This document shows, one piece after another, positions 3,881 through 46,296 of a DNA stretch of 64,000 nucleotides. Position 1 is the stretch's first letter. Each line of letters opens with the position of its first letter. The notes beneath the pieces were generated by a model that saw only the letters and a list, made by a program, of their open reading frames with translations, ran no database searches and was not told the DNA's origin. The translations under genes were made by a program, and so were the position numbers. Origin of the DNA: Cafeteria roenbergensis (taxonomy: Eukaryota; Sar; Bigyra; Bicosoecida; Cafeteriaceae); the NCBI GenBank assembly GCA_008330645.1, contig VLTN01000006.1:434001-498000 (forward strand), written 5' to 3'.

Positions 3881-4167
3881 GTCTCCGTTCCCGGAGCGCT
3901 GCGCGCTGCGGGTCCTGGTTCCACGGAAAGCGCGGTTCGCGGGGCCACCCCAGGCAAGCCGCTGCAGCTGACCGCCCCCTCCAGCCTTCCAGGGGTGTGG
4001 GGAGGGCCTGCGCGCCCGCGGCCGCTCGAGCTCTGCCGCTCCCGGATCAAGCTTTGCTCGGCGGTCCCTCTGCCGGACGCGCGCTCCGGGAGTGCCCCGC
4101 CCGGGTGCGGTGGCATTGAGCGGCGTTTAGCCTCAGGAGCACTCTGCGCCGGAGAAGGGCGGCTGCA
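3881..4167. promoter_or_regulatory. Short head-to-head spacer, likely bidirectional promoter
   Basis: Only 287 bp separate the ATG of the cap methyltransferase (minus) from the ATG of the five-RRM gene (plus), so both 5' leaders and promoters must lie here. No TATA box is visible. Inferred from position alone. Confidence 0.45.
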
Positions 4168-12901: not shown

Positions 12902-14077
12902 TCAGCGCTTGGCCGCAGCGCTGCGTGCCCGCGCGCGTTTCGTCCTGGAGCTCACAGGCGCAGCAGAAGCCGCCTCGTCTGCCTTGGGTGCCGGGCTTGG
13001 CGCCCGAGCGCGCTTTGGCGCCCTTGCAGGGCTCGGGCCTCGGGCCGGTGACGCCTTGCCTCGGAGCCTCTGGGCCTTCGCAGCCGGTGCGGCTTGCGCC
13101 GCCGACGAAGCCGGCTTGGCCGCCGGCTTGGCCTTGGCCGCCGGCTTGGCCTTGGCCGCCGGCTTGGCCTTGGCCGCCGGCTTGGCCTTGGCCGCCGGCT
13201 TGGCCTTGGCCGCCGGCTTGGCCTTGGCCGCCGGCTTGGCCATCGCCTTGGCCGTCGGCCCAGCAGCTGCTTCGTGCATCGTCTGCGCAACGAAGCGAGC
13301 TGCTGCAGCGAGCGACGCGGCGTGCACGTCATCCTGGGTCAGGTCGTTGCGCTTAAGGAAGGACTTTTGGGCCTCGCAGCTGTGATTGCCCGTCTCAACG
13401 GTGTGAAGCACGCACGAGGCCGCGCACGGCATGCTTTCTATGGCGGCTCGCAGCTCGGGCAGCGGGCCCATCGGGTCGCGATCCCCAGTGCAGAAGAACG
13501 CCGGAACCGGAAGGGCTTCCAGGGGGGCCGTGCGGAATGACCCTCCGCCCTTGAGGGGGTACCCGAAAGCCAGCACGCCACGGATGGGCACGCCGCTGAG
13601 GAGGGGGGATCCTGAGGCATCCACCTCAACGTCAGCCGCGTGGTGCTCGGCCCCGAGAGAGATGCAGCCCACACGCGACCCCATACTCTTTCCCGCAAAG
13701 AAGAGCGCGTCAACCGGCCCGGCCAAGCGAAGCGTCTCGCGCGCAGCCTCCCAGTAGTGGGGCGCAAGCTTCTCGGCCTTGCGCACCCCCGGAAAGTCGA
13801 AAGAGTGACACAGGGCGCACCCCTCCAGAGTCTGCAGGCGCTCCTTCCACGCCACCATCCACGGGTGCGACGACGGCGCCCCGGCGCCGTGGGCGAGCAC
13901 CACGGCGAAGCGGAAAGGAGCGCCAGTTGAAGCTGCCATGGCGGAGCTGGTGCCGGCAGACCTCGCCGGAACAGACGACCCGGACAGCAGGCCCGTCTCA
14001 GCGCCCGGGTGGGGCCCTGCTGCGGCAGGGGTGCTGCTCCCGAGCAGCGCGATCGGCCAGCCCCGGGGAAAGCCCAT
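12902..14077 (-). CDS. TEX30/KANSL3-type alpha/beta-hydrolase with Lys/Ala/Pro repeat tail
   Basis: 391 aa from the ATG at 14077; an in-frame ATG at 13939, just before the first core strand, would give 345 aa. The core has the TEX30/KANSL3 order: oxyanion strand VVLAHGAGAPSSHPWM, then the nucleophile elbow GKSMGSR (Ser), FGYPLK, the acid strand FFCTGDRDPM (Asp) and GNHS (His), so the Ser-Asp-His triad looks intact. The substrate is unknown for this family. The tail is unusual: six to seven PAAKAK hexapeptides encoded by an 18-bp tandem repeat, then an Ala/Lys/Arg/Pro stretch with RAPKRARAPSP and TKRARARSAAAKR, which looks like nuclear or DNA-binding basic sequence. The hexapeptides resemble the composition of the H1-like proteins encoded in the 36-45 kb array. 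Head to head with the next gene. Confidence 0.82.
   Translation of the reverse strand: MGFPRGWPIALLGSSTPAAAGPHPGAETGLLSGSSVPARSAGTSSAMAASTGAPFRFAVVLAHGAGAPSSHPWMVAWKERLQTLEGCALCHSFDFPGVRKAEKLAPHYWEAARETLRLAGPVDALFFAGKSMGSRVGCISLGAEHHAADVEVDASGSPLLSGVPIRGVLAFGYPLKGGGSFRTAPLEALPVPAFFCTGDRDPMGPLPELRAAIESMPCAASCVLHTVETGNHSCEAQKSFLKRNDLTQDDVHAASLAAAARFVAQTMHEAAAGPTAKAMAKPAAKAKPAAKAKPAAKAKPAAKAKPAAKAKPAAKAKPAAKPASSAAQAAPAAKAQRLRGKASPARGPSPARAPKRARAPSPAPKADEAASAAPVSSRTKRARARSAAAKR
13116..13241. repeat. 18-bp coding minisatellite (PAAKAK)
   Basis: Nearly perfect tandem copies of the 18-mer GCCGCCGGCTTGGCCTTG (plus strand), about seven units, in frame inside the hydrolase gene. The copies are almost identical at DNA level, indicating recent expansion or active homogenisation. 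Confidence 0.93.
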
Positions 14078-14419
14078 CGCGGGGCCGCTTGCTGCGGCAG
14101 AGCGGTGGATCGATTTCGTGTTTTCGCCAGTCGTCAAATCCCAATGACCGCCCAGCCCGCCATGCAAGGACTGGCAACCCAAGGAGCGAGCTCACAGTTC
14201 ACGCCCATGCCTACGAGCGACCCGCTCGCCCCGCGTCTCCCGCCTTGCCCCCGTTGTCGCAGGTCAGTTCGCAAACCCGCGCGGCACACAGGCTCGGCCG
14301 GCAGAGCTGGGCGCCGGTTTGCTCCCAAGCCGGGAAGGCGCGGCTGCTGACGGCGGCGCCCGCTGCCGGCCCCCACCCCCGCTGCTCGGGTGCGAGGACC
14401 CCCCCCACCCCCCGGAAGA
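14078..14419. promoter_or_regulatory. Head-to-head spacer, likely shared promoter
   Basis: 342 bp between the hydrolase start (minus) and the start of the small complex-I-like gene (plus). If the downstream ATG of the hydrolase is used the spacer is 480 bp. No core element identified. Confidence 0.4.
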
Positions 14420-17439: not shown

Positions 17440-20227
17440 ATGGCGAGCAAGATTTTCCGCAAGCCGTCCGACCGGCGGATGCCTTCGGAGGATGAGAGGC
17501 TCTGGAAGTCGAAGGCGATGCGCGAAGAGGGCCCGGACACTTGTGAGGGGCGCCACCAGGCGCGGAGAGGCGTCGCAGGCCCAGGGTTCTGCACCGGTTT
17601 GCCGCGCGGCTGGCGCGCCGCGCCGCCCGCTGCCCCCCCCCTCAGCCGCGCGCGCGCGCGACCCCCGCGCCTGCGTGCAGCGCGGCACACGGACCGTTGC
17701 TCCCCGTGGCCCATGGCTCCCACGCCTCGCACTGCTGCGCGCGACGCCGGGATCCGAACCTCGCAGACGTTCACGGCGACCTCATCGCCTCGCTGTTTAA
17801 CCGCATGCTCGCCTTGTCGCGGCGGCAGCGAGACGAGCTCTACGGTGGCAGCGTCCTCCTGGTCGGCGTGCTGGAGGGCCGCGGCCTGCCCATCGCCGAC
17901 AGCGACGGCCTGTCGGACCCGTACTGCGTCGTTACGCCCCTCGACCACCACCGCAAGGACATCCGTCGCGAGAAGCGGGTGACGCGGACCATTTCCAAGA
18001 CGCTGAACCCCGACTGGTGAGGTCCGGCGGCGGGGCTGCCACGTGCCGTTGTCTCGCGCGACCGGCCGGGGTTGTTGTGCGGGAGTTGTTGCGCCAAATG
18101 CACCTCACCGGCTCGCCCCCGCCCCCGTCGCCGCCCCCGGCATCCACGCCCTTCGCCGCTTCCGCCCGCCACCTCTCCTCGGCGCCCGCCCCATCGCCCC
18201 CCACCCTGCAGGGACGAAGTTCTGTACTTTGGCACAGACGTGGACCTGGACGAGTTTGCGTCGCTGCGAATCAAGGTGAAAGACTACGACGCAATCGGGA
18301 GCGACGACCGCCTCGGCGAGATCACAATCTCCATGGACGACATTCGCAAGCACACCCACGAGTCTGAAGACGGTGAGCTGGACGGGAAGCTTGGCCCCGC
18401 GCCCCTCGCACCCGCGCCGCAACCAGCAAGCCAACAAGCGACGCAGCTGCCCGCTGGTTCTCTGCTCCGCCACCTCTGCTGCCACCCTCCCCGCCGCTGC
18501 CGCCGCTATGGCACCCCCCCTCGCCGCGTGTCTCTGCGCCCGCAGGCTACTGGGATGTGACGCTGCCTCTGGCCCAGACAACGAAAACCTCCATCAAGGC
18601 CTGTGGCACCGTTCGGTTCCAAATCCTTCTGCACACGCCCCCGCCGGACCCCAAGCCCAGCCACATCACCGTGCGCGTTGCGGAGGGCCGCAACCTCATG
18701 GTCGCGGACTACACGGGCAAGTCCGATCCCTACGTCAAGGTGAAGCTTGCCACGCGCACCAACGACCACGTCGAAGGAAACGAGTCCGTTCTCACGCGGT
18801 GGATCCCGCAAACCCTCGACCCGGACTGGCAAGAGGTGTTTCGCTTCGGCCTGCCCTCGCTCGCAGCAGCGGAGTCGGAGGAGAGCGAGACCGGCGCCCC
18901 CCCCGACGCCCCCCGCCACGCCTGCAAGGGCGACCCCTACGTGGCCCAGGCCCTCGTGTTCACGGTCAAGGACCATGACAACGTGGGAACTGACGACCCC
19001 ATGGGCGAGGTGGTGGTCAGGTTTTCAAGCCTGTTCGGGGACGAGGACGCCGTCATCAGCCGTCGCTCCCTTCGCGTTGACAGGTGGTGGCGCGTCATGC
19101 CTGGAAAGGGCGTGTCATCGCGGATGGCTGGGAAGCTCGGGCACATTCACCTCGACATCACCCTCAGCTTCGGCGGCTCAGTCGAGCTCCTCCCGGCGGG
19201 CTGGCGCGAGGCCGTGGACGACGCAACGGGCGAAACCTACTTCTTCAGCCTCAAGACGGGCAAGAGCCAGTGGGAGCCGCCGGCGGAGCTGCTTGAGTCC
19301 GAAAAGGCCCTGGACGCCCTCGAGGCCCACGAGGAGGAGGCGGCCGCGGAGGCGGCCGCGGAAATGGGCGTGGACGCTCTTGTGCCGACGCAGTCGGGTC
19401 ACAGGTCCACCCTCATGTCGACGGCGGGGGGCGCCGCGCTGGCCGCCTCGTCGTCCGCCGGCGCGGCTGGGGCGCCGTCGTCCAACCCGCTGGACGCAGT
19501 AGCGGCCAGCCCGGCGCCTGCCCCGGATGCGGCCGCTGAGCCCACCACAGCGGCGGCCGCATCTGGCGCTGGGGACGGCAGCGACAGCTCCGCGCCGGCG
19601 GCAGAGGGGGCTGACAGCAAACAGCCGGAGGAGCCCGACGCCTCGTCAGAGGCCGCGCAGCCCTCCGACGAGGGCGATGCCAAGAAGGCCTCCGACGAGG
19701 GCGATGCCAAGAAGGCCGCCGACGAGGGCGATGCCAAGAAGGCCTCCGACGAGGGCGATGCCAAGAAGGCCTCCGACGAGGGCGCAGAGGGGCTGACCAT
19801 CTCGTCCCCCGCCCCGTCTGGGGCGTCAAGCCCCGTCAGCTCCCCCGCGGCCGCGCTCTCCCCTGGAGGCGAGTCCACTGGCAACCCGCTGCTCGACGCC
19901 GCGCACGAGGACGAGGAGGCGGCAGCCGTGCCTGCCGACGCGGGCGAGCGCGAAGAAGTGTTCTTCGAGCGCATGCGGGCGCAGGCGCAGGCCAAGAAGG
20001 ACGCGGCGCGGCGGGAGCGGCAGGCGCGCATCGCAGCCATGTCGCCCGAGGAGAAGGCCGAGCACGAGGCCGCGCAGCGCGCCGAGGAGCGCCGCGAGAA
20101 GCGCAAGCGCCGTATGATGTCAACGCAGCTCAAGGCCTACGCGAGCGGGGGCGGGCGCGCGTCCATCGTTGGAGGGCCGGCCAGAGGACGGGGCCGGGGT
20201 CGCGGGCGCGGCCGGGGCAGGGGCTAG
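17440..20227 (+). CDS. Double-C2, WW-domain protein with acidic/Lys repeats and RG tail
   Basis: Four exons inferred: 17440-17542, 17767-18016, 18212-18372 and 18546-20227, giving 731 aa. C2A lies at about res 62-170, with ADSDGLSDPYCVV in loop 1 and VKDYDAIGSDDRLGE in loop 3. C2B lies at about 210-350, with ADYTGKSDPYVKV and VKDHDNVGTDDPMGE. Both keep the Asp set that coordinates Ca2+, so Ca2+-dependent phospholipid binding is expected. A WW domain follows at about 386-418 (LPAGWREAVDD, then SQWEPP), as in NEDD4-like proteins, but no HECT domain is present. Next come four to five copies of SDEGDAKKA, then a charged coiled-coil-like region (EEKAEHEAAQRAEERREKRK) and a C-terminal RGRGRGRG run. 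The RG tail suggests RNA contact. I know no standard family with this order. Confidence 0.85.
19668..19786. repeat. 27-bp coding repeat (SDEGDAKKA)
   Basis: Four to five tandem 27-bp units in frame in the C2-WW gene; one copy has Ala for Ser. Near-identity at DNA level points to slippage-type expansion. Confidence 0.92.
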
Positions 20228-28662: not shown

Positions 28663-31614
28663 ATGTCTTCAGTGGCCGCCGCCAAGCCGCGAAGCAGCGC
28701 CAAGGACTTCGTCGTCCTTGCGAAGCTCGGTAAGGGCGCGTTTGGAACCGTCTACAAGGTGCAACGCAAGCAGGATGGCAAGGTGTACGCTCTCAAAAAA
28801 ATCGCCATCGGCAAAATGCCTCGTCGGGACCTGCTTGACACCATGGGAGAGGTACGGTGAGCCGTGGCGATTCCACGGGACGGCAGACGCGCGAGGACAG
28901 TGAAGCCCAGCCGCAACGTGCTCGATCAGTCGCTCGGCGTCGCGCATTGGCGCTGGCTGGCAGCGCCAGCGGCGAGTGCTCCTCGCTGCACGGATCAGTC
29001 TCACTGGCTATGCCCGCGCTGCGCCCCGACTGCCACGCATGACTCTGCTGCGCAGGCTTTTGGCCTCCATTAGCCATGCCAACATCGTCCGGTTCGCGGA
29101 GGCGTTCATCATCGAGGTGCGTGCTGTCGCGGAGGCGAGCGCCTCCGGGAGCTGCTGGCGTTTTTCCCAGACCGCTTTCGTTCGACGACTCGCACCGCTC
29201 CCGGCCGGCTGCCCGACCCCCACCCGCGCTGCCTCTCCCTGCTCCGAAGCTCACGACTGCGCCTGCCCGAGTCCCGCAGAAGTCGATGGAGCTTTGCATC
29301 GTACAAGAGTTTGCCGACGGCGGAGATCTGGCAATGCAAGTTGAGCAACTGAGCAAGGCGCGCCGCTACATGGCGGAGGAGCTGATCTGGACGTACGCGA
29401 TCCAGGCCCTCGAGGGGCTCACACACCTGCACTCCCTGGGCATCCTGCACAGAGACTTGAAGCCCGCAAACATCATGCTATGCCTCGATGGCACGATCAA
29501 GCTCGGGGACCTCAATGTTTCCAAGCTGGCAAAGTTCAGCCTGGTCAAGACGCAGATCGGCACCCCCTACTACATGTCCCCCGAGATCTGGAACAACAAG
29601 CCCTACGGCGACAGGTCCGACATGTGGGCCCTCGGCTGCGTCATTTACGAGCTCGCGGCTCTCAAACCCCCATTCCAGGGCCGCAACATCGACGAGCTCT
29701 CTCGCAAAGTCCAGGCGGGGTACTTCCCGCGGGTGCCGGCGCACTATTCCAAGGACCTCGAGGAGCTGATTTCGTCCCTTCTCCGCAAGAACGCTCGCCA
29801 GCGGCCGAGCGCATCCGCGCTCCTAAAGTCTGGCCTGATCACCAAGAAGCGCGCGGAGCTCAGGCGCTGGATGGACGAGACACGACGGGTGAGAGATGCG
29901 GGGACGACGGGGCCTGTCATTAGCAAGCTGGAGCTGCGCCCTTTGTCGCGCGGCCGTTGCCTGCGCCCCGCCGCCGAAGCCCTGTTGCTCGCGACTTGCC
30001 CTGGCGCCTCAAACCTCTGCGCTGCTGCTGCTGCTAATGCTGCGGCTCGCTGGTGGATCGCTCTTGCCCTCGCAGGCGGCAGAAGATTTCCACGAGAGTG
30101 CCAACAGCAACCTGCTCGGCACGATTGCAGTGCCGGCGCGCATGGACGCTCGCAGCGTGGCGCAAATCCAGCTCCCGTCACCACAGTACCACCGCCCCGC
30201 CGCAAACTCGCGCAAGTCGTTTGGCGGGAGCCACGGCGCTTCCTCTGACAAGTCGGCAGAGCCAGCAGTCGCGGCCGCAGCGGCAGGAGCGCCAGGAGGC
30301 GATTCGGGGCTCTACCGGCCGCACGTGCACGAGCCGCCCCGCGCTGGAGGCGGAGGGCGCATTCCCGTGGCGTCCGACCTCCCCAAGCGCTACGAGCAGC
30401 CTGGCGTCCCGGGTGGGAGGAGCGATGCATGGGGCGGCGCCGGGGCGGCAAGAGGCGGTGGAGCGGCGGCTGGCGCAGGTGGCAGGGGTGGGGGCGTCGG
30501 GTCCGTGGCTGAAGCGCGTGCCCGGGCTCGGGAGGAAGCCAACCGCCTCATGGCTGACGACGAGAGGCGCCGCAGGGGCGCAAGCGAGCCCCGGGCCGCG
30601 TACGGAGGCGCGGCCTACGGAGGCGCAGCCTACGGCGCGGCGGCGTACGGCGCCCGGCCGCACGCCGACCCCCGCCTGCCCTCGCTCCCAGTCCCGGCCG
30701 TTGGGAGGCCGTCGGCCCGCAGCCGAAGCGAGGACCCTGCCTCTGCCCGTCGCGGCTTCGTGCCGAGCGTGCGGCCGTCGTCGCGCCTGGTCGGCCCGAA
30801 CGGCGCTGAGTACGCTGCGTACCGACCTTCGGCGTACGCGGCAGCGCGCGCCGGTGCCTACGGAGGGCCGTCCAGCCGGGGCTCAGCGCGTGGTCCGCCG
30901 TCGAGGGGGAGCTCCCGGGGCAGCAGGGCAGGATTCACACCGCGCGGCGGCGCGGCCGCGCGCGGCGCTCACGGCCGGGCGTACGACTCGCGCCTCGACC
31001 TCGTGGCTGACGCCTACGGGGTGCGCGGGGCCGGCCGGGCCCGCCCGACGAAGCAGGCGCCGCACTGGGACTCGAGGCTGCACCCTGCTGGCGGGGGGCG
31101 ACGAGGGCCGTCATCGCGAGGCGGCGACGGCGGGGGGAGGCTCCCCTCCAGAGGAAGCGTCTACAGCGACAACGGGAGCAGGGCGGGGCCGTACGCCCAG
31201 CCGCGCGCCTCACGGGGGGACCTGCCCAGCGTGCGCGGCTTTGGCCGGGGAGCCGGGCACGAGGACTCGTCAGCGTACGGAGCGAGGCCCAGGCCGTACG
31301 CTCACCCGAGCGCCGGAAGCCGCGGGTACGCTCCCGAGCCGCGTGGCTACGGCGCGTACGCTGCTGCGGCGCCGTCTTCCCGCGCCGGTGCCGCGTATGC
31401 GGCCCCCAGCGCCAGGGCCGGCGGAGACTACAGTGCCGGCGGTTACGCCGCCAACCCTTCCGCGCGAGGGCACGGGGGCTACGCCGCGGGGGGTGCTCGG
31501 CGAGGCTCCAACGCCTCATACGCGTCCGGCTACGGAGGGGCATACCAGCCGTCCGCTGCTGGCATCCCATCGGCCAGGTCGGGCAAGGGCTCCATGCCGT
31601 CGTGGTGGGGATAG
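28663..31614 (+). CDS. NEK (NIMA-related) Ser/Thr kinase, FA2-like
   Basis: Four exons, 28663-28856, 29056-29116, 29280-29888 and 30076-31614, give 800 aa. The kinase domain (about res 15-275) has the Gly loop GKGAFGTV (23-30), YALKK (Lys), GEVRLLASISHANIVRF across the first join, the catalytic HRDLKPAN (142-149) and TQIGTPYYMSPEIW, SDMWALGCVIYEL. The DFG motif reads DLN (162-164). This, with the activation-loop sequence, recalls the FA2/CNK-type NEKs of algae and ciliates, which act at cilia and in microtubule severing; the metal-binding Asp is kept, so activity is expected. The 500-residue tail is Ala/Gly/Ser/Tyr/Arg-rich with repeated AYGG and SSRG motifs and is probably disordered. The lineage assignment to FA2 is by eye. 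Confidence 0.88.
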
Positions 31615-35438: not shown

Positions 35439-35512
35439 CCGGGCATGGCACAGTTGGTTAGCGCACGAGATTGTAGTTCTTGGGGTCACCGGTTCGAATC
35501 CGGTTGCCCGGA
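35439..35512 (+). tRNA. tRNA-Tyr (GUA), copy 1, intron-less
   Basis: A complete 74-nt cloverleaf. Acceptor CCGGGCA pairs with TGCCCGG, with discriminator A; the C1-G72 pair is typical of eukaryotic tRNA-Tyr. The D arm is GCAC/GCGC (one A-C mismatch). The anticodon stem CGAGA pairs with TCTTG around loop TTGTAGT, anticodon GTA. The T arm is ACCGG/CCGGT around TTCGAAT. Internal A box and B box (GGTTCGAATCC) are canonical. A T5 Pol III terminator follows (GATTGTTTTTGC). No intron interrupts the anticodon loop. CCA is not encoded. Confidence 0.96.
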
Positions 35513-36204
35513 TTGTTTTTGCTTCGGTTCGTGTGGGAAGGCTCTGCCAGCACGCTGCTACAATGAGGAATTGGCACGGCGGGGCAGCAGCCACTCGTTG
35601 GAGGGAACGTACAACAATCACGCGGACGCAAAGCGCAGCACGGGAACTTTGGGGCGACCGGCCCGCACAAGGAGGTCGAAGCCGACCGCCTTCCCGTGAA
35701 GATCCCCTGTCGCCTCGCCTCGCGTCGCCTCGCCTCCAGGCCCCTGCGTTCGAGCGACCGCCCGCTCGACCGACCCTCGTGCGTGTGCGTCGCTGTGACG
35801 GGTCTCCTCGCGTGACGCCGCCGCGGCCCGTCGTCCAAACAACACACTCGCGCGCCCATTCGGACCGGCACCGTCAGGCCGCACGCTCCGCCAACACACG
35901 CATCGCGACCACGCCACGCCGTCGGCGCACACACGCACCGCCGCCCCTCCGCCCCACGGCTACACACCACCCGATCGGCCCGCCACCACCGCCGACCGCA
36001 ACACACCAACCCCCCAAACACCCCGCCCTCGCACACCGCCCGCGCCACCCTCCGCCCGCACGCCCGCCCGACCCCGCCCGCGCGCCGCAGCGACGGGGGA
36101 CGCGGCCGGGGGACGCGGCAGGGGGGGGCAGCGCGCCGACGGCGAGGGACGGGACCACCCGACATCCGCATTCGCCAGGGCCGCCGCAGCGGCTCCGGGG
36201 GCGA

Positions 36205-36967
36205 TCAGGCCTTGCCCTTGCCCTTGGCGCCGCCCTTGGCCGGGGCCGCCTTGCCGGCGGCCTCCTTCGCCGGGGCCGCCTTGGCCGGGGCGCCCTTCGC
36301 GCCGCCCTTGGCCGGGGCCGCCTTGCCGGCGGCCTCCTTCGCCGGGGCCGCCTTGGCCGGGGCGCCCTTCGCGCCAGCCTTGCTGCGAGTCGGGGCGGGA
36401 TCACGCAGCCGCGCACGCCAGCACACACGGGAGAGTGACGGGGCGCCGGCGAGGAGGGGCGGACGGACCGACCAGCCGCGCGCGCGCGCGCAAGCCGCCC
36501 CTGCTCCCGGCTCGGACCAGCAACCGCCATCGCGCCGCCACGTCAGTCGCCGCGCCCCGCCCTCGCGCGCGCCGATACGCCGCCCGCGCGGCCCGCCACG
36601 CCATGCGCAGCCGGTCGTGCTCACCCCTTGGCGGCGGGCTTGTCCTTCCCGGCCGCGGCCTTGTCAGCGGCGGGAGCCTTGGCGGCAGCAGCAGCGGGGG
36701 CCTCTGCGAAAACCAGCAGCCGGGCGGAACACACACGCGCACACTCCACCGTCGCTGGGCACGCCGTGCGCCAGCACACACACACGCACACGCACACGCG
36801 CCCTGTCCCCGCCGCCGCGGACGCGCGGTCGCGACTGCGGCCCGCCGGCCCACATGGCGAGCGCGCGCAACGCCACAACACGAGCGCCACTCGCCACGGC
36901 CTCGCGCGCCCCTCCGCCCGCACCCGCGCGCCGCCGCGCCGCCCCGCGACTCACTCTTGCCGGGCAT
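36205..36967 (-). CDS. H1-tail-like Lys/Ala-rich basic protein, array copy A
   Basis: Three exons on the minus strand: 36967-36955 (13 nt), 36703-36625 (79 nt) and 36382-36205 (178 nt). Donors are GTGAGT and GTGAGC, acceptors CGCAG; phases match exactly and the joined frame is 89 codons plus TGA. The protein starts MPGKKAPAAAAAK and ends GGAKGKGKA. By my count it has about 39 Ala and 21 Lys, the rest Gly and Pro, with four acids, and no Ser, Thr, Arg, His or aromatic residue. Exon 3 encodes a 24-residue unit (GAPAKAAPAKEAAGKAAPAK core) twice. Composition and length match the C-terminal tail of linker histone H1, and tail-only H1 proteins of about this size occur in kinetoplastids and other protists. 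Likely nuclear and DNA-compacting; this is inference. Confidence 0.78.
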
Positions 36968-37730
36968 CGTCGCAAGCACTCGCTCGAGAGTCGAGGGGAG
37001 AGGAGTGCTCTTCCGCGGGCCGCTGCGGGCGGGCGGGGGCGGCTCTGCAACTCCCAGTCCGATGGCTCTCGCGCTCCCCGAATCCGCCTCCGCCTCCGCC
37101 CCGCGCACGAGGCCCCTCGACTGCCTTGGACCGCGCGCCGGGCCGACTCCGCGCGCTGTACGCCCCCCTTCTCTGTCCGCGCCGCCCCCCCCCCCGGCCC
37201 GTGCCGCCCGGCCACCCACCCCGCTCGAGCCACGCACACAACGCTCGCCCCGCCCGCTGCCCTTCCTCCCTCGCCCTCCGTTCGACCGCCCGCCCCACCG
37301 ACCGCTCGACCGACCCTCGTGCGTGTGCGTCGCTGTGACGGGTCTCCTCGCGTGACGCCGCCGCGGCCCGTCGTCCGAACAACACACTCGCGCGCCCATT
37401 CGGACCGGCACCGTCAGGCCGCACGCTCCGCCAACACACGCATCGCGACCACGCCACGCCGTCGGCGCACACACGCACCGCCGCCCCTCCGCCCCACGGC
37501 CACACACCACCCGATCGGCCCGCCACCACCGCCGACCGCAACACACCAACCCCCAAACACCCCGCCCTCGCATACCGCCCGCGCCACCCTCCGCCCGCAC
37601 GCCCGCCCGACCCCGCCCGCGCGCCGCAGCGACGGGGGACGCGGCAGGGGGGAGAGGCGCGCCGACGGCGAGGGACGGGACCACCCGACATCCGCATTCG
37701 CCAGGGCCGCCGCAGCGGCTCCGGGGGCGA

Positions 37731-38485
37731 TCAGGCCTTGCCCTTGCCCTTGGCGCCGCCCTTGGCCGGGGCCGCCTTGCCGGCGGCCTCCTTCGCCGGG
37801 GCCGCCTTGGCCGGGGCGCCCTTCGCGCCGCCCTTGGCCGGGGCCGCCTTGCCGGCGGCCTCCTTCGCCGGGGCCGCCTTGGCCGGGGCGCCCTTCGCGC
37901 CAGCCTTGCTGCGAGTCGGGGCGGGATCACGCAGCCGCGCACGCCAGCACACACGGGAGAGTGACGGGGCGCCGGCGAGGAGGGGCGGACGGACCGACCA
38001 GCCGCGCGCGCGCGCAAGCCGCCCCTGCTCCCGGCTCGGACCAGCAACCGCCATCGCGCCGCCACGTCAGTCGCCGCGCCCCGCCCTCGCGCGCGCCGAT
38101 ACGCCGCCCGCGCGGCCCGCCACGCCATGCGCAGCCGGTCGTGCTCACCCCTTGGCGGCGGGCTTGTCCTTCCCGGCCGCGGCCTTGTCAGCGGCGGGAG
38201 CCTTGGCGGCAGCAGCAGCGGGGGCCTCTGCGAAAACCAGCAGCCGGGCGGAACACACACGCGCACACTCCACCGTCGCTGGGCACGCCGTGCGCCAGCA
38301 CACGCACACGCACACGCGCCCTGTCCCCGCCGCCGCGGACGCGCGGTCGCGACTGCGGCCCGCCGGCCCACATGGCGAGCGCGCGCAACGCCACAACACG
38401 AGCGCCACTCGCCACGGCCTCGCGCGCCCCTCCGCCCGCACCCGCGCGCCGCCGCGCCGCCCCGCGACTCACTCTTGCCGGGCAT
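37731..38485 (-). CDS. H1-tail-like Lys/Ala-rich basic protein, array copy B
   Basis: Exons 38485-38473, 38227-38149 and 37908-37731, the same 13, 79 and 178 nt lengths and splice sites as copy A. The encoded 89-residue protein is identical as far as I can read. The CA/CG microsatellite in intron 1 is shorter than in copy A. Confidence 0.78.
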
Positions 38486-39260
38486 CGTCGCAAGCACTCG
38501 CTCGAGAGTCGAGGGGAGAGGAGTGCTCTTCCGCGGGCCGCTGCGGGCGGGCGGGGGCGGCTCTGCAACTCCCAGTCCGATGGCTCTCGCGCTCCCCGAA
38601 TCCGCCTCCGCCTCCGCCCCGCGCACGAGGCCCCTCGACTGCCTTGGACCGCGCGCCGGGCCGACTCCGCGCGCTGTACGCCCCCCTTCTCTGTCCGCGC
38701 CGCGCCCCCCCCCGGCCCGTGCCGCCCGGCCACCCACCCCGCTCGAGCCACGCACACAACGCTCGCCCCGCCCGCTGCCCTTCCTCCCTCGCCCTCCGTT
38801 CGACCGCCCGCCCCACCGACCGCTCGACCGACCCTCGTGCGTGTGCGTCGCTGTGACGGGTCTCCTCGCGTGACGCCGCCGCGGCCCGTCGTCCGAACAA
38901 CACACTCGCGCGCCCATTCGGACCGGCACCGTCAGGCCGCACGCTCCGCCAACACACGCATCGCGACCACGCCACGCCGTCGGCGCACACACGCACCGCC
39001 GCCCCTCCGCCCCACGGCCACACACCACCCGATCGGCCCGCCACCACCGCCGACCGCAACACACCAACCCCCCAAACACCCCGCCCTCGCATACCGCCCG
39101 CGCCACCCTCCGCCCGCACGCCCGCCCGACCCCGCCCGCGCGCCGCAGCGACGGGGACGCGGCCGGGGGACGCGGCAGGGGGGGCAGCGCGCCGACGGCG
39201 AGGGACGGGACCACCCGACATCCGCATTCGCCAGGGCCGCCGCAGCGGCTCCGGGGGCGA

Positions 39261-40015
39261 TCAGGCCTTGCCCTTGCCCTTGGCGCCGCCCTTGGCCGGG
39301 GCCGCCTTGCCGGCGGCCTCCTTCGCCGGGGCCGCCTTGGCCGGGGCGCCCTTCGCGCCGCCCTTGGCCGGGGCCGCCTTGCCGGCGGCCTCCTTCGCCG
39401 GGGCCGCCTTGGCCGGGGCGCCCTTCGCGCCAGCCTTGCTGCGAGTCGGGGCGGGATCACGCAGCCGCGCACGCCAGCACACACGGGAGAGTGACGGGGC
39501 GCCGGCGAGGAGGGGCGGACGGACCGACCAGCCGCGCGCGCGCGAAAGCCGCCCCTGCTCCCGGCTCGGACCAGCAACCGCCATCGCGCCGCCACGTCAG
39601 TCGCCGCGCCCCGCCCTCGCGCGCGCCGATACGCCGCCCGCGCGGCCCGCCACGCCATGCGCAGCCGGTCGTGCTCACCCCTTGGCGGCGGGCTTGTCCT
39701 TCCCGGCCGCGGCCTTGTCAGCGGCGGGAGCCTTGGCGGCAGCAGCAGCGGGGGCCTCTGCGAAAACCAGCAGCCGGGCGGAACACACACGCGCACACTC
39801 CACCGTCGCTGGGCACGCCGTGCGCCAGCACACGCACACGCACACGCGCCCTGTCCCCGCCGCCGCGGACGCGCGGTCGCGACTGCGGCCCGCCGGCCCA
39901 CATGGCGAGCGCGCGCAACGCCACAACACGAGCGCCACTCGCCACGGCCTCGCGCGCCCCTCCGCCCGCACCCGCGCGCCGCCGCGCCGCCCCGCGACTC
40001 ACTCTTGCCGGGCAT
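39261..40015 (-). CDS. H1-tail-like Lys/Ala-rich basic protein, array copy C
   Basis: Exons 40015-40003, 39757-39679 and 39438-39261, intact, same protein as copies A and B. The poly-C tract upstream of this gene (near 40231) is the longest of the array, which accounts for the long period between copies C and D. Confidence 0.78.
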
Positions 40016-40799
40016 CGTCGCAAGCACTCGCTCGAGAGTCGAGGGGAGAGGAGTGCTCTTCCGCGGGCCGCTGCGGGCGGGCGGGGGCGGCTCTGCAACT
40101 CCCAGTCCGATGGCTCTCGCGCTCCCCGAATCCGCCTCCGCCTCCGCCCCGCGCACGAGGCCCCTCGACTGCCTTGGACCGCGCGCCGGGCCGACTCCGC
40201 GCGCTGTACGCCCCCCTTCTCTGTCCGCGCCGCCCCCCCCCCCCCCCCCGGCCCGTGCCGCCCGGCCACCCACCCCGCTCGAGCCACGCACACAACGCTC
40301 GCCCCGCCCGCTGCCCTTCCTCCCTCGCCCTCCGTTCGACCGCCCGCCCCACCGACCGCTCGACCGACCCTCGTGCGTGTGCGTCGCTGTGACGGGTCTC
40401 CTCGCGTGACGCCGCCGCGGCCCGTCGTCCGAACAACACACTCGCGCGCCCATTCGGACCGGCACCGTCAGGCCGCACGCTCCGCCAACACACGCATCGC
40501 GACCACGCCACGCCGTCGGCGCACACACGCACCGCCGCCCCTCCACCCCACGGCCACACACCACCCGATCGGCCCGCCACCACCGCCGACCGCAACACAC
40601 CAACCCCCCCCAACACCCCGCCCTCGCACACCGCCCGCGCCACCCTCCGCCCGCACGCCCGCCCGACCCCGCCCGCGCGCCGCAGCGACGGGGGACGCGG
40701 CCGGGGGACGCGGCAGGGGGGAGAGGCGCGCCGACGGCGAGGGACGGGACCACCCGACATCCGCATTCGCCAGGGCCGCCGCAGCGGCTCCGGGGGCGA

Positions 40800-41555
40800 T
40801 CAGGCCTTGCCCTTGCCCTTGGCGCCGCCCTTGGCCGGGGCCGCCTTGCCGGCGGCCTCCTTCGCCGGGGCCGCCTTGGCCGGGGCGCCCTTCGCGCCGC
40901 CCTTTGGCCGGGGCCGCCTTGCCGGCGGCCTCCTTCGCCGGGGCCGCCTTGGCCGGGGCGCCCTTCGCGCCAGCCTTGCTGCGAGTCGGGGCGGGATCAC
41001 GCAGCCGCGCACGCCAGCACACACGGGAGAGTGACGGGGCGCCGGCGAGGAGGGGCGGACGGACCGACCAGCCGCGCGCGCGCGAAAGCCGCCCCTGCTC
41101 CCGGCTCGGACCAGCAACCGCCATCGCGCCGCCACGTCAGTCGCCGCGCCCCGCCCTCGCGCGCGCCGATACGCCGCCCGCGCGGCCCGCCACGCCATGC
41201 GCAGCCGGTCGTGCTCACCCCTTGGCGGCGGGCTTGTCCTTCCCGGCCGCGGCCTTGTCAGCGGCGGGAGCCTTGGCGGCAGCAGCAGCGGGGGCCTCTG
41301 CGAAAACCAGCAGCCGGGCGGAACACACACGCGCACACTCCACCGTCGCTGGGCACGCCGTGCGCCAGCACACGCACACGCACACGCGCCCTGTCCCCGC
41401 CGCCGCGGACGCGCGGTCGCGACTGCGGCCCGCCGGCCCACATGGCGAGCGCGCGCAACGCCACAACACGAGCGCCACTCGCCACGGCCTCGCGCGCCCC
41501 TCCGCCCGCACCCGCGCGCCGCCGCGCCGCCCCGCGACTCACTCTTGCCGGGCAT
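40800..41555 (-). pseudogene. H1-tail-like gene, array copy D, frameshifted
   Basis: Exons 41555-41543, 41297-41219 and 40978-40800. Exons 1 and 2 match the other copies, but exon 3 is 179 nt instead of 178: one extra A (T on the plus strand, near 40902) in the codons between the two 24-residue units. From there the frame shifts to Arg/Gly/Gln-rich sequence, passes the normal stop and continues to about 40468. It is either a young pseudogene, an altered long protein, or a sequencing error in a GC-rich repeat. Confidence 0.7.
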
Positions 41556-42333
41556 CGTCGCAAGCACTCGCTCGAGAGTCGAGGGGAGAGGAGTGCTCTT
41601 CCGCGGGCCGCTGCGGGCGGGCGGGGGCGGCTCTGCAACTCCCAGTCCGATGGCTCTCGCGCTCCCCGAATCCGCCTCCGCCTCCGCCCCGCGCACGAGG
41701 CCCCTCGACTGCCTTGGACCGCGCGCCGGGCCGACTCCGCGCGCTGTACGCCCCCCTTCTCTGTCCGCGCCGCCCCCCCCCCCCGGCCCGTGCCGCCCGG
41801 CCACCCACCCCGCTCGAGCCACGCACACAACGCTCGCCCCGCCCGCTGCCCTTCCTCCCTCGCCCTCCGTTCGACCGCCCGCCCCACCGACCGCTCGACC
41901 GACCCTCGTGCGTGTGCGTCGCTGTGACGGGTCTCCTCGCGTGACGCCGCCGCGGCCCGTCGTCCGAACAACACACTCGCGCGCCCATTCGGACCGGCAC
42001 CGTCAGGCCGCACGCTCCGCCAACACACGCATCGCGACCACGCCACGCCGTCGGCGCACACACGCACCGCCGCCCCTCCGCCCCACGGCCACACACCACC
42101 CGATCGGCCCGCCACCACCGCCGACCGCAACACACCAACCCCCCAAACACCCCGCCCTCGCATACCGCCCGCGCCACCCTCCGCCCGCACGCCCGCCCGA
42201 CCCCGCCCGCGCGCCGCAGCGACGGGGGACGCGGCCGGGGGACGCGGCAGGGGGGGGCAGCGCGCCGACGGCGAGGGACGGGACCACCCGACATCCGCAT
42301 TCGCCAGGGCCGCCGCAGCGGCTCCGGGGGCGA

Positions 42334-43088
42334 TCAGGCCTTGCCCTTGCCCTTGGCGCCGCCCTTGGCCGGGGCCGCCTTGCCGGCGGCCTCCTTCGCC
42401 GGGGCCGCCTTGGCCGGGGCGCCCTTCGCGCCGCCCTTGGCCGGGGCCGCCTTGCCGGCGGCCTCCTTCGCCGGGGCCGCCTTGGCCGGGGCGCCCTTCG
42501 CGCCAGCCTTGCTGCGAGTCGGGGCGGGATCACGCAGCCGCGCACGCCAGCACACACGGGAGAGTGACGGGGCGCCGGCGAGGAGGGGCGGACGGACCGA
42601 CCAGCCGCGCGCGCGCGAAAGCCGCCCCTGCTCCCGGCTCGGACCAGCAACCGCCATCGCGCCGCCACGTCAGTCGCCGCGCCCCGCCCTCGCGCGCGCC
42701 GATACGCCGCCCGCGCGGCCCGCCACGCCATGCGCAGCCGGTCGTGCTCACCCCTTGGCGGCGGGCTTGTCCTTCCCGGCCGCGGCCTTGTCAGCGGCGG
42801 GAGCCTTGGCGGCAGCAGCAGCGGGGGCCTCTGCGAAAACCAGCAGCCGGGCGGAACACACACGCGCACACTCCACCGTCGCTGGGCACGCCGTGCGCCA
42901 GCACACGCACACGCACACGCGCCCTGTCCCCGCCGCCGCGGACGCGCGGTCGCGACTGCGGCCCGCCGGCCCACATGGCGAGCGCGCGCAACGCCACAAC
43001 ACGAGCGCCACTCGCCACGGCCTCGCGCGCCCCTCCGCCCGCACCCGCGCGCCGCCGCGCCGCCCCGCGACTCACTCTTGCCGGGCAT
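42334..43088 (-). CDS. H1-tail-like Lys/Ala-rich basic protein, array copy E
   Basis: Exons 43088-43076, 42830-42752 and 42511-42334, intact, same lengths, splice sites and protein as copy A. Confidence 0.78.
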
Positions 43089-43863
43089 CGTCGCAAGCAC
43101 TCGCTCGAGAGTCGAGGGGAGAGGAGTGCTCTTCCGCGGGCCGCTGCGGGCGGGCGGGGGCGGCTCTGCAACTCCCAGTCCGATGGCTCTCGCGCTCCCC
43201 GAATCCGCCTCCGCCTCCGCCCCGCGCACGAGGCCCCTCGACTGCCTTGGACCGCGCGCCGGGCCGACTCCGCGCGCTGTACGCCCCCCTTCTCTGTCCG
43301 CGCCCCCCCCCCCCCCGGCCCGTGCCGCCCGGCCACCCACCCCGCTCGAGCCACGCACACAACGCTCGCCCCGCCCGCTGCCCTTCCTCCCTCGCCCTCC
43401 GTTCGACCGCCCGCCCCACCGACCGCTCGACCGACCCTCGTGCGTGTGCGTCGCTGTGACGGGTCTCCTCGCGTGACGCCGCCGCGGCCCGTCGTCCGAA
43501 CAACACACTCGCGCGCCCATTCGGACCGGCACCGTCAGGCCGCACGCTCCGCCAACACACGCATCGCGACCACGCCACGCCGTCGGCGCACACACGCACC
43601 GCCGCCCCTCCGCCCCACGGCCACACACCACCCGATCGGCCCGCCACCACCGCCGACCGCAACACACCAACCCCCCAAACACCCCGCCCTCGCATACCGC
43701 CCGCGCCACCCTCCGCCCGCACGCCCGCCCGACCCCGCCCGCGCGCCGCAGCGACGGGGGACGCGGCCGGGGACGCGGCAGGGGGGGCAGCGCGCCGACG
43801 GCGAGGGACGGGACCACCCGACATCCGCATTCGCCAGGGCCGCCGCAGCGGCTCCGGGGGCGA

Positions 43864-44620
43864 TCAGGCCTTGCCCTTGCCCTTGGCGCCGCCCTTGGCC
43901 GGGGCCGCCTTGCCGGCGGCCTCCTTCGCCGGGGCCGCCTTGGCCGGGGCGCCCTTCGCGCCGCCCTTGGCCGGGGCCGCCTTGCCGGCGGCCTCCTTCG
44001 CCGGGGCCGCCTTGGCCGGGGCGCCCTTCGCGCCAGCCTTGCTGCGAGTCGGGGCGGGATCACGCAGCCGCGCACGCCAGCACACACGGGAGAGTGACGG
44101 GGCGCCGGCGAGGAGGGGCGGACGGACCGACCAGCCGCGCGCGCGCGCGAAAGCCGCCCCTGCTCCCGGCTCGGACCAGCAACCGCCATCGCGCCGCCAC
44201 GTCAGTCGCCGCGCCCCGCCCTCGCGCGCGCCGATACGCCGCCCGCGCGGCCCGCCACGCCATGCGCAGCCGGTCGTGCTCACCCCTTGGCGGCGGGCTT
44301 GTCCTTCCCGGCCGCGGCCTTGTCAGCGGCGGGAGCCTTGGCGGCAGCAGCAGCGGGGGCCTCTGCGAAAAACAGCAGCCGGGCGGAACACACACGCGCA
44401 CACTCCACCGTCGCTGGGCACGCCGTGCGCCAGCACACGCACACGCACACGCACCCTGTCCCCGCCGCCGCGGACGCGCGGTCGCGACTGCGGCCCGCCG
44501 GCCCACATGGCGAGCGCGCGCAACGCCACAACACGAGCGCCACTCGCCACGGCCTCGCGCGCCCCTCCGCCCGCACCCGCGCGCCGCCGCGCCGCCCCGC
44601 GACTCACTCTTGCCGGGCAT
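43864..44620 (-). CDS. H1-tail-like Lys/Ala-rich basic protein, array copy F (outermost)
   Basis: Exons 44620-44608, 44362-44284 and 44041-43864, intact. It is the first copy in transcriptional direction. Only about 160 bp of array spacer lie upstream before the sequence changes to unrelated, less GC-rich DNA, so its promoter is at least partly different from that of copies A to E, which have the full spacer including the poly-C tract. An A replaces C just upstream of the intron 1 acceptor (GCGAAAAAC against GCGAAAACC on the plus strand). Confidence 0.75.
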
Positions 44621-44780
44621 CGTCGCAAGCACTCGCTCGAGAGTCGAGGGGAGAGGAGTGCTCTTCCGCGGGCCGCTGCGGGCGGGCGGGGGCGGCTCTG
44701 CAACTCCCAGTCCGATGGCTCTCGCGCTCCCCGAATCCGCCTCCGCCTCCGCCCCGCGCACGAGGCCTCTCGACTGCTTG

Positions 44781-45824
44781 GACGACTTCTCCGTTTTTTT
44801 CCCTCCCCGTTCCTGCTGTTCCTGCGCTTGTTGGCCCGTCCCTGTTGGTGAGTCAGGCTGTGCATGTTTTTCTTCCAAGAGCGATTCGCATCACGATTCT
44901 TTTACGTTTACGACAGGTGTGGAGATGTGTGCTTTTGCTGTATTAGGGGCTCGTCTGACTTTCTTGCCGCCTCTGTCTTTCGCGACACTGTTTCGCCCCT
45001 GGTTTCTTCTCACCGGCTGCTTCGTTGCTTGTTTGTGATTCAAACCTGGTGCTTGCTGTCCCCTTGAGTTGAGCGGCCGCCGCCTTCAGATACGGAAGCT
45101 TCCCCGGGCCTGCTCTGCCTCATGGCAAGCGCGGGCCATCCGACCCGCTCGCAAGCTCGCCCTCTGGGTGGGCCCACCGGCTCGAGCCCACGTGGGGCTC
45201 AACAGCCGCACCCCGTACCCCCCGCACGCTCGCGCCCCGAGTGGTGTGTTTGTGCTCAACTCGATCGTTCGACTGCCCGATGGCCGGTCAAATTCATATG
45301 TTCATCGTGTTGTTGCTATTTTGTTTAACCTTTGTGCCTCAACAAGCTTGCACCCACCTCGTCCGCACAAGCTTTACTCTGATAACCTTCACTGTCTCAT
45401 CAACAGTCGCTACATGTCACACACAATGCACAGCTCGAAAGTCGCCGACTCCCGTCTGCACGCTGAGCATCTGCAGCGCCAAGCCCTGTCGGGTGCACCC
45501 CGACTGTTACAATGCATTCGCTGCTCTCTCTCGACCGATGAGGTCTTGACACCGTGAACAGTCCTGCCATGACTAGGCTGTCCCGTTCGATTCCTTCTGG
45601 TGGGACTCTGTCCGAGCTGTTCGCGGAAGGATAAAGTGCGCGCGCCACCTCCACTGCGATGTCCCCATGCATTCCAGGTCGCAGTCAGAGTTGGGGTGTT
45701 TCGTGGGTGCATCTCGTTCGGAGAAGTCGTTGATTTGCATTCAGAATTCATCATCTACCATCGACAGTTTGTGACAGAGGTCAAACTATAAATACCTGTC
45801 ATTTCCCGCTGCGGTCGCAAAATC
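44781..45824. other. Less GC-rich kilobase between array and tRNA copy 2
   Basis: About 1 kb of visibly lower GC, with T-rich runs (CCGTTTTTTTCCC near 44810, TTCTTTTACG near 44898). Short open frames exist in all directions but none looks like a protein. It begins exactly where the array homology ends and should contain the promoter of copy F. A TATAAATA at about 45786 lies roughly 37 bp before tRNA copy 2. Otherwise nothing recognised. Confidence 0.5.
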
Positions 45825-45898
45825 CCGGGCATGGCACAGTTGGTTAGCGCACGAGATTGTAGTTCTTGGGGTCACCGGTTCGAATCCGGTTGCCCGGA
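45825..45898 (+). tRNA. tRNA-Tyr (GUA), copy 2, intron-less
   Basis: Identical over all 74 nt to copy 1, including the AATC before and GATTGTTTTTGC after. A TATAAATA box about 37 bp upstream resembles the upstream TATA element used by Pol III in some eukaryotes. Confidence 0.96.
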
Positions 45899-46222: not shown

Positions 46223-46296
46223 CCGGGCATGGCACAGTTGGTTAGCGCACGAGATTGTAGTTCTTGGGGTCACCGGTTCGAATCCGGTTGCCCGGA
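46223..46296 (+). tRNA. tRNA-Tyr (GUA), copy 3, intron-less
   Basis: Identical to copies 1 and 2 with the same T5 terminator. A long open frame on the same strand runs straight through it from 46055; this is the reason to place the start of the following EF-hand gene downstream at 46514. Confidence 0.96.

Follow-up and report, generated by a model that had tools for sequence, protein, structure and literature searches.

A near-identical array of six probable spliced genes in Cafeteria roenbergensis and its predicted tail-only H1-like product

Structure and coding potential of the array

A 64,000-nt stretch of contig VLTN01000006.1 from the bicosoecid Cafeteria roenbergensis (GCA_008330645.1, positions 434,001 to 498,000; hereafter the window) contains six direct tandem units arranged head to tail, each holding a three-exon gene model on the minus strand whose product, of 89 residues in five of the six, consists largely of alanine and lysine. 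Alignment of the units and blastn of both ends against the neighbouring units placed the array at positions 35756..44783 of the window. A preliminary description of this DNA had given its extent as 35765-44780; the six-unit array does lie there, but unit homology reaches slightly further on both sides. The count of six was borne out by locating six copies of exon 1 together with their splice sites. The ATG-bearing first exons start on the minus strand at 36967, 38485, 40015, 41555, 43088 and 44620, with ATG-to-ATG spacings of 1518, 1530, 1540, 1533 and 1532 bp. Unit 1 is cut short at the 3′ end, on the low-coordinate side, and upstream of the copy 6 ATG the similarity to the other units gives out after about 163 bp. 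Over the ungapped columns of the six-unit alignment the units are 99.02-99.93% identical pairwise, with some spacer variants common to copies 2 and 4.

The exons measure 13, 79 and 178 nt in five of the six copies, exon 3 being 179 nt long in copy 4. Intron 1 is 245 nt long except in copy 1, where it spans 251 nt, while intron 2 spans 240 nt in four copies and 242 nt in copies 1 and 6. GT-AG sites are present in all six copies, with the donors GTGAGT and GTGAGC and with both acceptors ending in TCGCAG. On the minus strand, the genes occupy 36205..36967 (copy 1; exons 36967-36955, 36703-36625 and 36382-36205), 37731..38485 (copy 2; 38485-38473, 38227-38149 and 37908-37731), 39261..40015 (copy 3; 40015-40003, 39757-39679 and 39438-39261), 40800..41555 (copy 4; 41555-41543, 41297-41219 and 40978-40800, with a one-base insertion in exon 3), 42334..43088 (copy 5; 43088-43076, 42830-42752 and 42511-42334) and 43864..44620 (copy 6; 44620-44608, 44362-44284 and 44041-43864). 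All copies except copy 4 encode the same 89 residues, running from MPGK to KGKGKA and a stop codon. The three-exon model with perfect phase put forward earlier therefore stands, as the GT-AG joins are phase-consistent and the product is intact in five copies. Exon 3 of copy 2 carries a 72-nt (24-residue) in-frame tandem repeat of 2.3 copies (37746..37908, minus strand), detected by TRF and by self-match at a lag of 72. TRF found this repeat in all six units, with a period of 72 and 96% matches in five of them and a period of 73 and 94% matches in copy 4. The sense strand turns GT-rich in the unit 2 spacer, some 170-265 nt beyond the copy 2 stop codon (37465-37560, minus strand), and by eye this stretch is a possible candidate for a 3′-end formation element.

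We compared the 270-nt coding sequence with 5,000 dinucleotide-preserving shuffles, none of which combined at least 21 lysines with the absence of arginine; the shuffles averaged 6.7 lysines with a maximum of 12, and never had fewer than four arginines. A sample of 5,015 frames from elsewhere in the window, each of 90 codons and free of stops, included seven with at least 15 lysines (maximum 18) and 35 without arginine. In its remaining five frames the spliced coding sequence gives translations without Lys, in which Arg, Gly, Pro, Leu or Ala abound. A chance frame was rejected on the grounds of these shuffles and of the comparison with other frames. Exons 2 and 3 are alike in composition, and the run of Ala, Lys, Pro and Gly ends at the splice sites, the translated intron sequence containing Arg, Ser, Trp and Cys. 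The 22 substitution columns found across the six units lie upstream of the gene (five, four of them where copy 6 frays out), in intron 1 (two), in intron 2 (two) and in the spacer (13), and none falls in the coding sequence, which makes up 270 of the 1,518 bp of the unit. The corresponding binomial probability is about 0.013 and rises to about 0.03 when the four frayed-end columns are set aside, both values to be read with the non-independence of columns owing to gene conversion. Of 12 indel events in the alignment, the insertion in copy 4 is the only one within the coding sequence. In codon usage, GCA serves for none of the 39 alanines compared with 92 of 562 in four other open reading frames (ORFs) of the window; AAG encodes all 21 lysines, which is normal for the window.

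Introns of a comparable kind occur elsewhere in the window, since a Nek-like protein kinase gene (part examined, 28691-30000, plus strand) can be joined across two GT-AG introns of 199 nt (28857-29055, GTGAGC...GCGCAG) and 163 nt (29117-29279, GTGCGT...CCGCAG). The joined product matches Pkinase over positions 2-260 of 263 (E 6.6e-60), and its best match among PDB sequences, to the NEK1 chain 4apc_A (E 4.1e-63), spans both joins; two extra residues lie beside the second join, the exact place of which is approximate. On the strength of these sequence features, each intact unit of the array is probably a spliced protein-coding gene.

Composition and known counterparts of the 89-residue product

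The product contains 39 Ala, 21 Lys, 14 Gly, 10 Pro, two Asp, two Glu and one Met, in agreement with the approximately 44% Ala and 24% Lys stated previously, and carries a net charge of +17. Arg, Ser, Thr, Tyr, Cys and aromatic residues are entirely lacking. Lysines are mostly spaced four to five residues apart between Ala, Pro and Gly, the longest tryptic peptide has eight residues, and the protein is probably disordered. Inspection of the 89 residues by eye, without a predictor, revealed no signal-peptide-like hydrophobic stretch.

A canonical linker histone H1/H5 has a globular winged-helix domain, named Linker_histone in Pfam. Neither the product nor its unit provides one: scanning all 15 stop-to-stop ORFs of at least 40 residues overlapping unit 2 against Pfam at E up to 10 recovered no globular H1 domain, although a domain split over small exons could escape such a scan. 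The sole match, to DUF746 in a 2042-residue plus-strand frame, is at chance level (E 1.2). A hidden exon for the globular domain was rejected on this basis. The product does fit the tail-only H1-like class, that is, a single small basic domain rich in Lys, Ala and Pro with no globular domain, a class defined by composition, so that belonging to it is not proof of common descent. Ser/Thr phosphorylation sites, which are a reported property of known tail-only H1s rather than part of the domain definition, are absent (zero Ser, Thr and Tyr). Protamines are Arg-rich, and with zero Arg in the array protein the suggestion of a protamine-like class found no support. Replication-dependent histone mRNAs carry a 3′ stem-loop; at 35700-38500 none figured among the five Rfam matches at E up to 10, and this candidate was rejected, while a scan of the whole window at the Rfam gathering thresholds returned three tRNAs and no histone stem-loop.

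Trypanosome genes are mostly devoid of cis-spliced introns. The H1 of Trypanosoma brucei, an established chromatin protein with which we made the comparison by description, is a single Lys/Ala/Pro-rich domain encoded by five genes in 'polymorphic H1 gene arrays' (PMC3486875). The array protein resembles it in having a single domain of this composition and several arrayed genes, and the comparison with kinetoplastid tail-only H1s made in the preliminary description is apt. However, T. brucei H1 has N-terminal, possibly phosphorylated Ser/Thr and polymorphic copies (PMC3486875), whereas the array has five identical products from genes of three exons each. A closer size match is TgH1-like of Toxoplasma gondii, a tail-only chromatin protein of 91 residues (PMC9769792), which by its description is also like the array protein in lacking a globular domain, in resembling an H1 tail and in belonging to a unicellular eukaryote. 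TgH1-like is phosphorylated at Ser43 and ubiquitylated at Lys45, and when these sites were mutated both its location and chromatin compaction changed (PMC9769792); in contrast, the array protein has no Ser or Thr. The Toxoplasma protein is found in the nucleolus as well and associates with ribosomal proteins (PMC9769792).

The C-terminal domains of H1s from the brown alga Sargassum are, like the array protein, Lys-rich with little or no Arg, three of six having 0% Arg (PMC10858212), but they are joined to a globular domain and contain 26.1-37.8% Lys compared with 24% in the tail-only array protein. The lack of Ser, Thr and Arg had been called odd for an H1; the lack of Ser and Thr is indeed unusual, but the lack of Arg is ordinary given these three Sargassum tails. 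Chlamydia Hc2, a bacterial H1-like protein with a variable number of lysine-rich pentamers, and Pseudomonas AlgP are H1-tail-like as well, but they are bacterial, and no Pfam match links them to the array protein. Dinoflagellate linker histones have been sought with BLAST and Pfam (PMC4751559), and one H1 variant is described in a diatom (PMC4504042); neither source altered our reading. Among the matches listed from the open-licence PMC literature on tail-only or multi-copy H1 and on Cafeteria histones, we recognised no report of the 89-residue protein or of the array.

Proposed function and alternative readings

We consider it somewhat better than an even chance that the array consists of genes for a tail-only H1-like chromatin protein, meaning real, spliced and amplified genes whose strongly cationic 89-residue product would be the equivalent of an H1 tail. 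By analogy with single-domain H1s, the protein would bind DNA between nucleosomes without sequence preference, neutralise phosphate charge and promote compaction, as reported for those of kinetoplastids and Toxoplasma. Such a role would imply that the genes are transcribed and spliced and that their product is abundant and nuclear. The near-identity and number of the copies suggest dosage and homogenisation; unequal exchange or gene conversion may keep the six copies near-identical, and the array may provide a bulk supply of the protein. Since Ser, Thr and Tyr are lacking, phosphorylation of these residues could not regulate the protein, and any control would have to come from modified lysines, from gene dosage or from transcription. 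A more specific proposition, that this lineage has as its bulk linker protein an H1 lacking a core and insensitive to phosphorylation, controlled only by lysine modification and gene dosage and produced from a homogenised intron-containing array, is one that we hold only tentatively and regard as doubtful.

Several results weigh against a tail-only H1-like gene array. Copy 4 is frameshifted by the extra base in exon 3 and reads on to 200 residues; it may be a pseudogene or reflect a sequencing error at that base. Compared with first-order Markov expectation, the splice hexamers show no excess elsewhere in the window, either for the donors (GTGAGT, 12 vs 15.2 expected; GTGAGC, 48 vs 52.8) or for the acceptor TCGCAG (64 vs 63.4), so that a match to these motifs alone means little. 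Pfam recognises no family in the product at E up to 10, and PDB sequences yielded a single match (E 4.1) to a low-complexity stretch. A peptide pattern matched 264 stretches in IMG/VR and 588 in GTDB, of which tblastn against these contigs at E 1e-3 confirmed no relative, and a DNA pattern for exon 3 had no exact match in IMG/VR; these searches are weak as negatives, because the query is of low complexity, and IMG/VR and GTDB are not eukaryotic genome collections. Finally, Ser/Thr residues open to phosphorylation are present in both known tail-only H1s compared here, T. brucei H1 and TgH1-like, and the modification sites of the latter are important.

Could the array be a non-coding or decaying satellite-like repeat that merely looks coding because its DNA is GC-rich? 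High GC and the long chance frames found on both strands (2042 residues on the plus strand and 1531 on the minus strand) would fit such a repeat, as would the frameshifted copy. We nevertheless judge it very unlikely, since the shuffles, the phased splice sites and the lack of coding substitutions speak against it. Nor is the plus-strand frame kept across all units, being broken between some of them because the spacings of 1540 and 1532 bp are not multiples of three. A plus-strand coding frame was rejected for this reason and for its chance-level Pfam match (E 1.2), in line with the earlier view that the long opposite-strand frame is spurious. Another reading takes the coding unit to be an intronless ORF that runs through intron 2 into exon 3, as in copies 2-5 exon 3 is preceded, at a distance of 49 codons, by an in-frame ATG, and no stop intervenes. 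This we find hardly credible: copies 1 and 6 offer no ATG in frame within intron 2, where a length difference of two bases changes the frame, so that only four of the six copies possess one, and the intronless frame was rejected on this count. Moreover, the translation switches abruptly at the CGCAG acceptor from a sequence containing Arg, Ser, Trp, Leu and Cys to one rich in Ala, Lys, Pro and Gly, and exon 2, which is equally rich in Ala, Lys and Pro, is yet cut off from exon 3 by an intron with in-frame stops (unit 2).

If the genes are real, their cationic low-complexity product might still serve outside chromatin, in binding RNA, polyphosphate or ribosomes, in stress protection or in templating scales or minerals. 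The ligand cannot be read from composition alone, AlgP, an H1-like protein of bacteria, is reported to space polyphosphate granules (PMC9239181), and the nucleolar location of TgH1-like with ribosomal proteins (PMC9769792) also points this way. We regard a job of this sort as unlikely, though worth keeping in view, since the regular lysine spacing, the Ala/Pro/Gly/Lys composition, the small size and the multi-copy dosage fit descriptions of single-domain H1s and no signal-peptide-like stretch was seen by eye.

Returning to the tail-only H1-like reading, proteins of this kind are already known, and what is new here is most likely a variant without Ser and Thr in a homogenised array. Tail-only H1s have been described in a few protist groups, in which phosphorylation is reported to matter; an H1 tail beyond the reach of Ser/Thr/Tyr phosphorylation would separate charge-driven compaction from the phospho-switch, testably so in a single organism. 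With 13 coding bases in exon 1 and tryptic peptides of at most eight residues, the protein would easily escape annotation and proteomics, and the array illustrates clearly the kind of gene, amplified for dosage, that is likely to be missed by simple ORF calling and standard tryptic proteomics.

Surroundings of the array

Three tRNA-Tyr genes on the plus strand, each of 74 bp and intronless, flank the array, one on the left (35439-35512) and two on the right (45825-45898 and 46223-46296). The stretch common to the three loci measures about 94-98 bp, with 98-100% identity, and the tRNA-Tyr DNA had no exact match in IMG/VR. The window is eukaryotic DNA with a GC content of 64-79% per 2-kb step; for the Cafeteria genome, a GC content of about 70% and 1.67-1.89 introns per gene are given (PMC6972860). 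Frames in the window match an mRNA cap methyltransferase with a WW domain, RRM, VPS36-like, C2/WW, EF-hand and MORN proteins, an alpha/beta hydrolase and a protein kinase. The mRNA cap guanine-N7 methyltransferase and the WW domain share one open frame of 998 residues (1127-4123, minus strand). The alpha/beta hydrolase frame (12905-14191, minus strand; Abhydrolase_11, E 9e-25) has at its C-terminal end a series of KAKPAA repeats together with a basic tail, so that an H1-tail-like repeat is also present in this genome as an extension of an enzyme. DAKKASDEG/DAKKAADEG repeats occur at 19676 on the plus strand, in a frame within the C2/WW ORF region (18377-20224).

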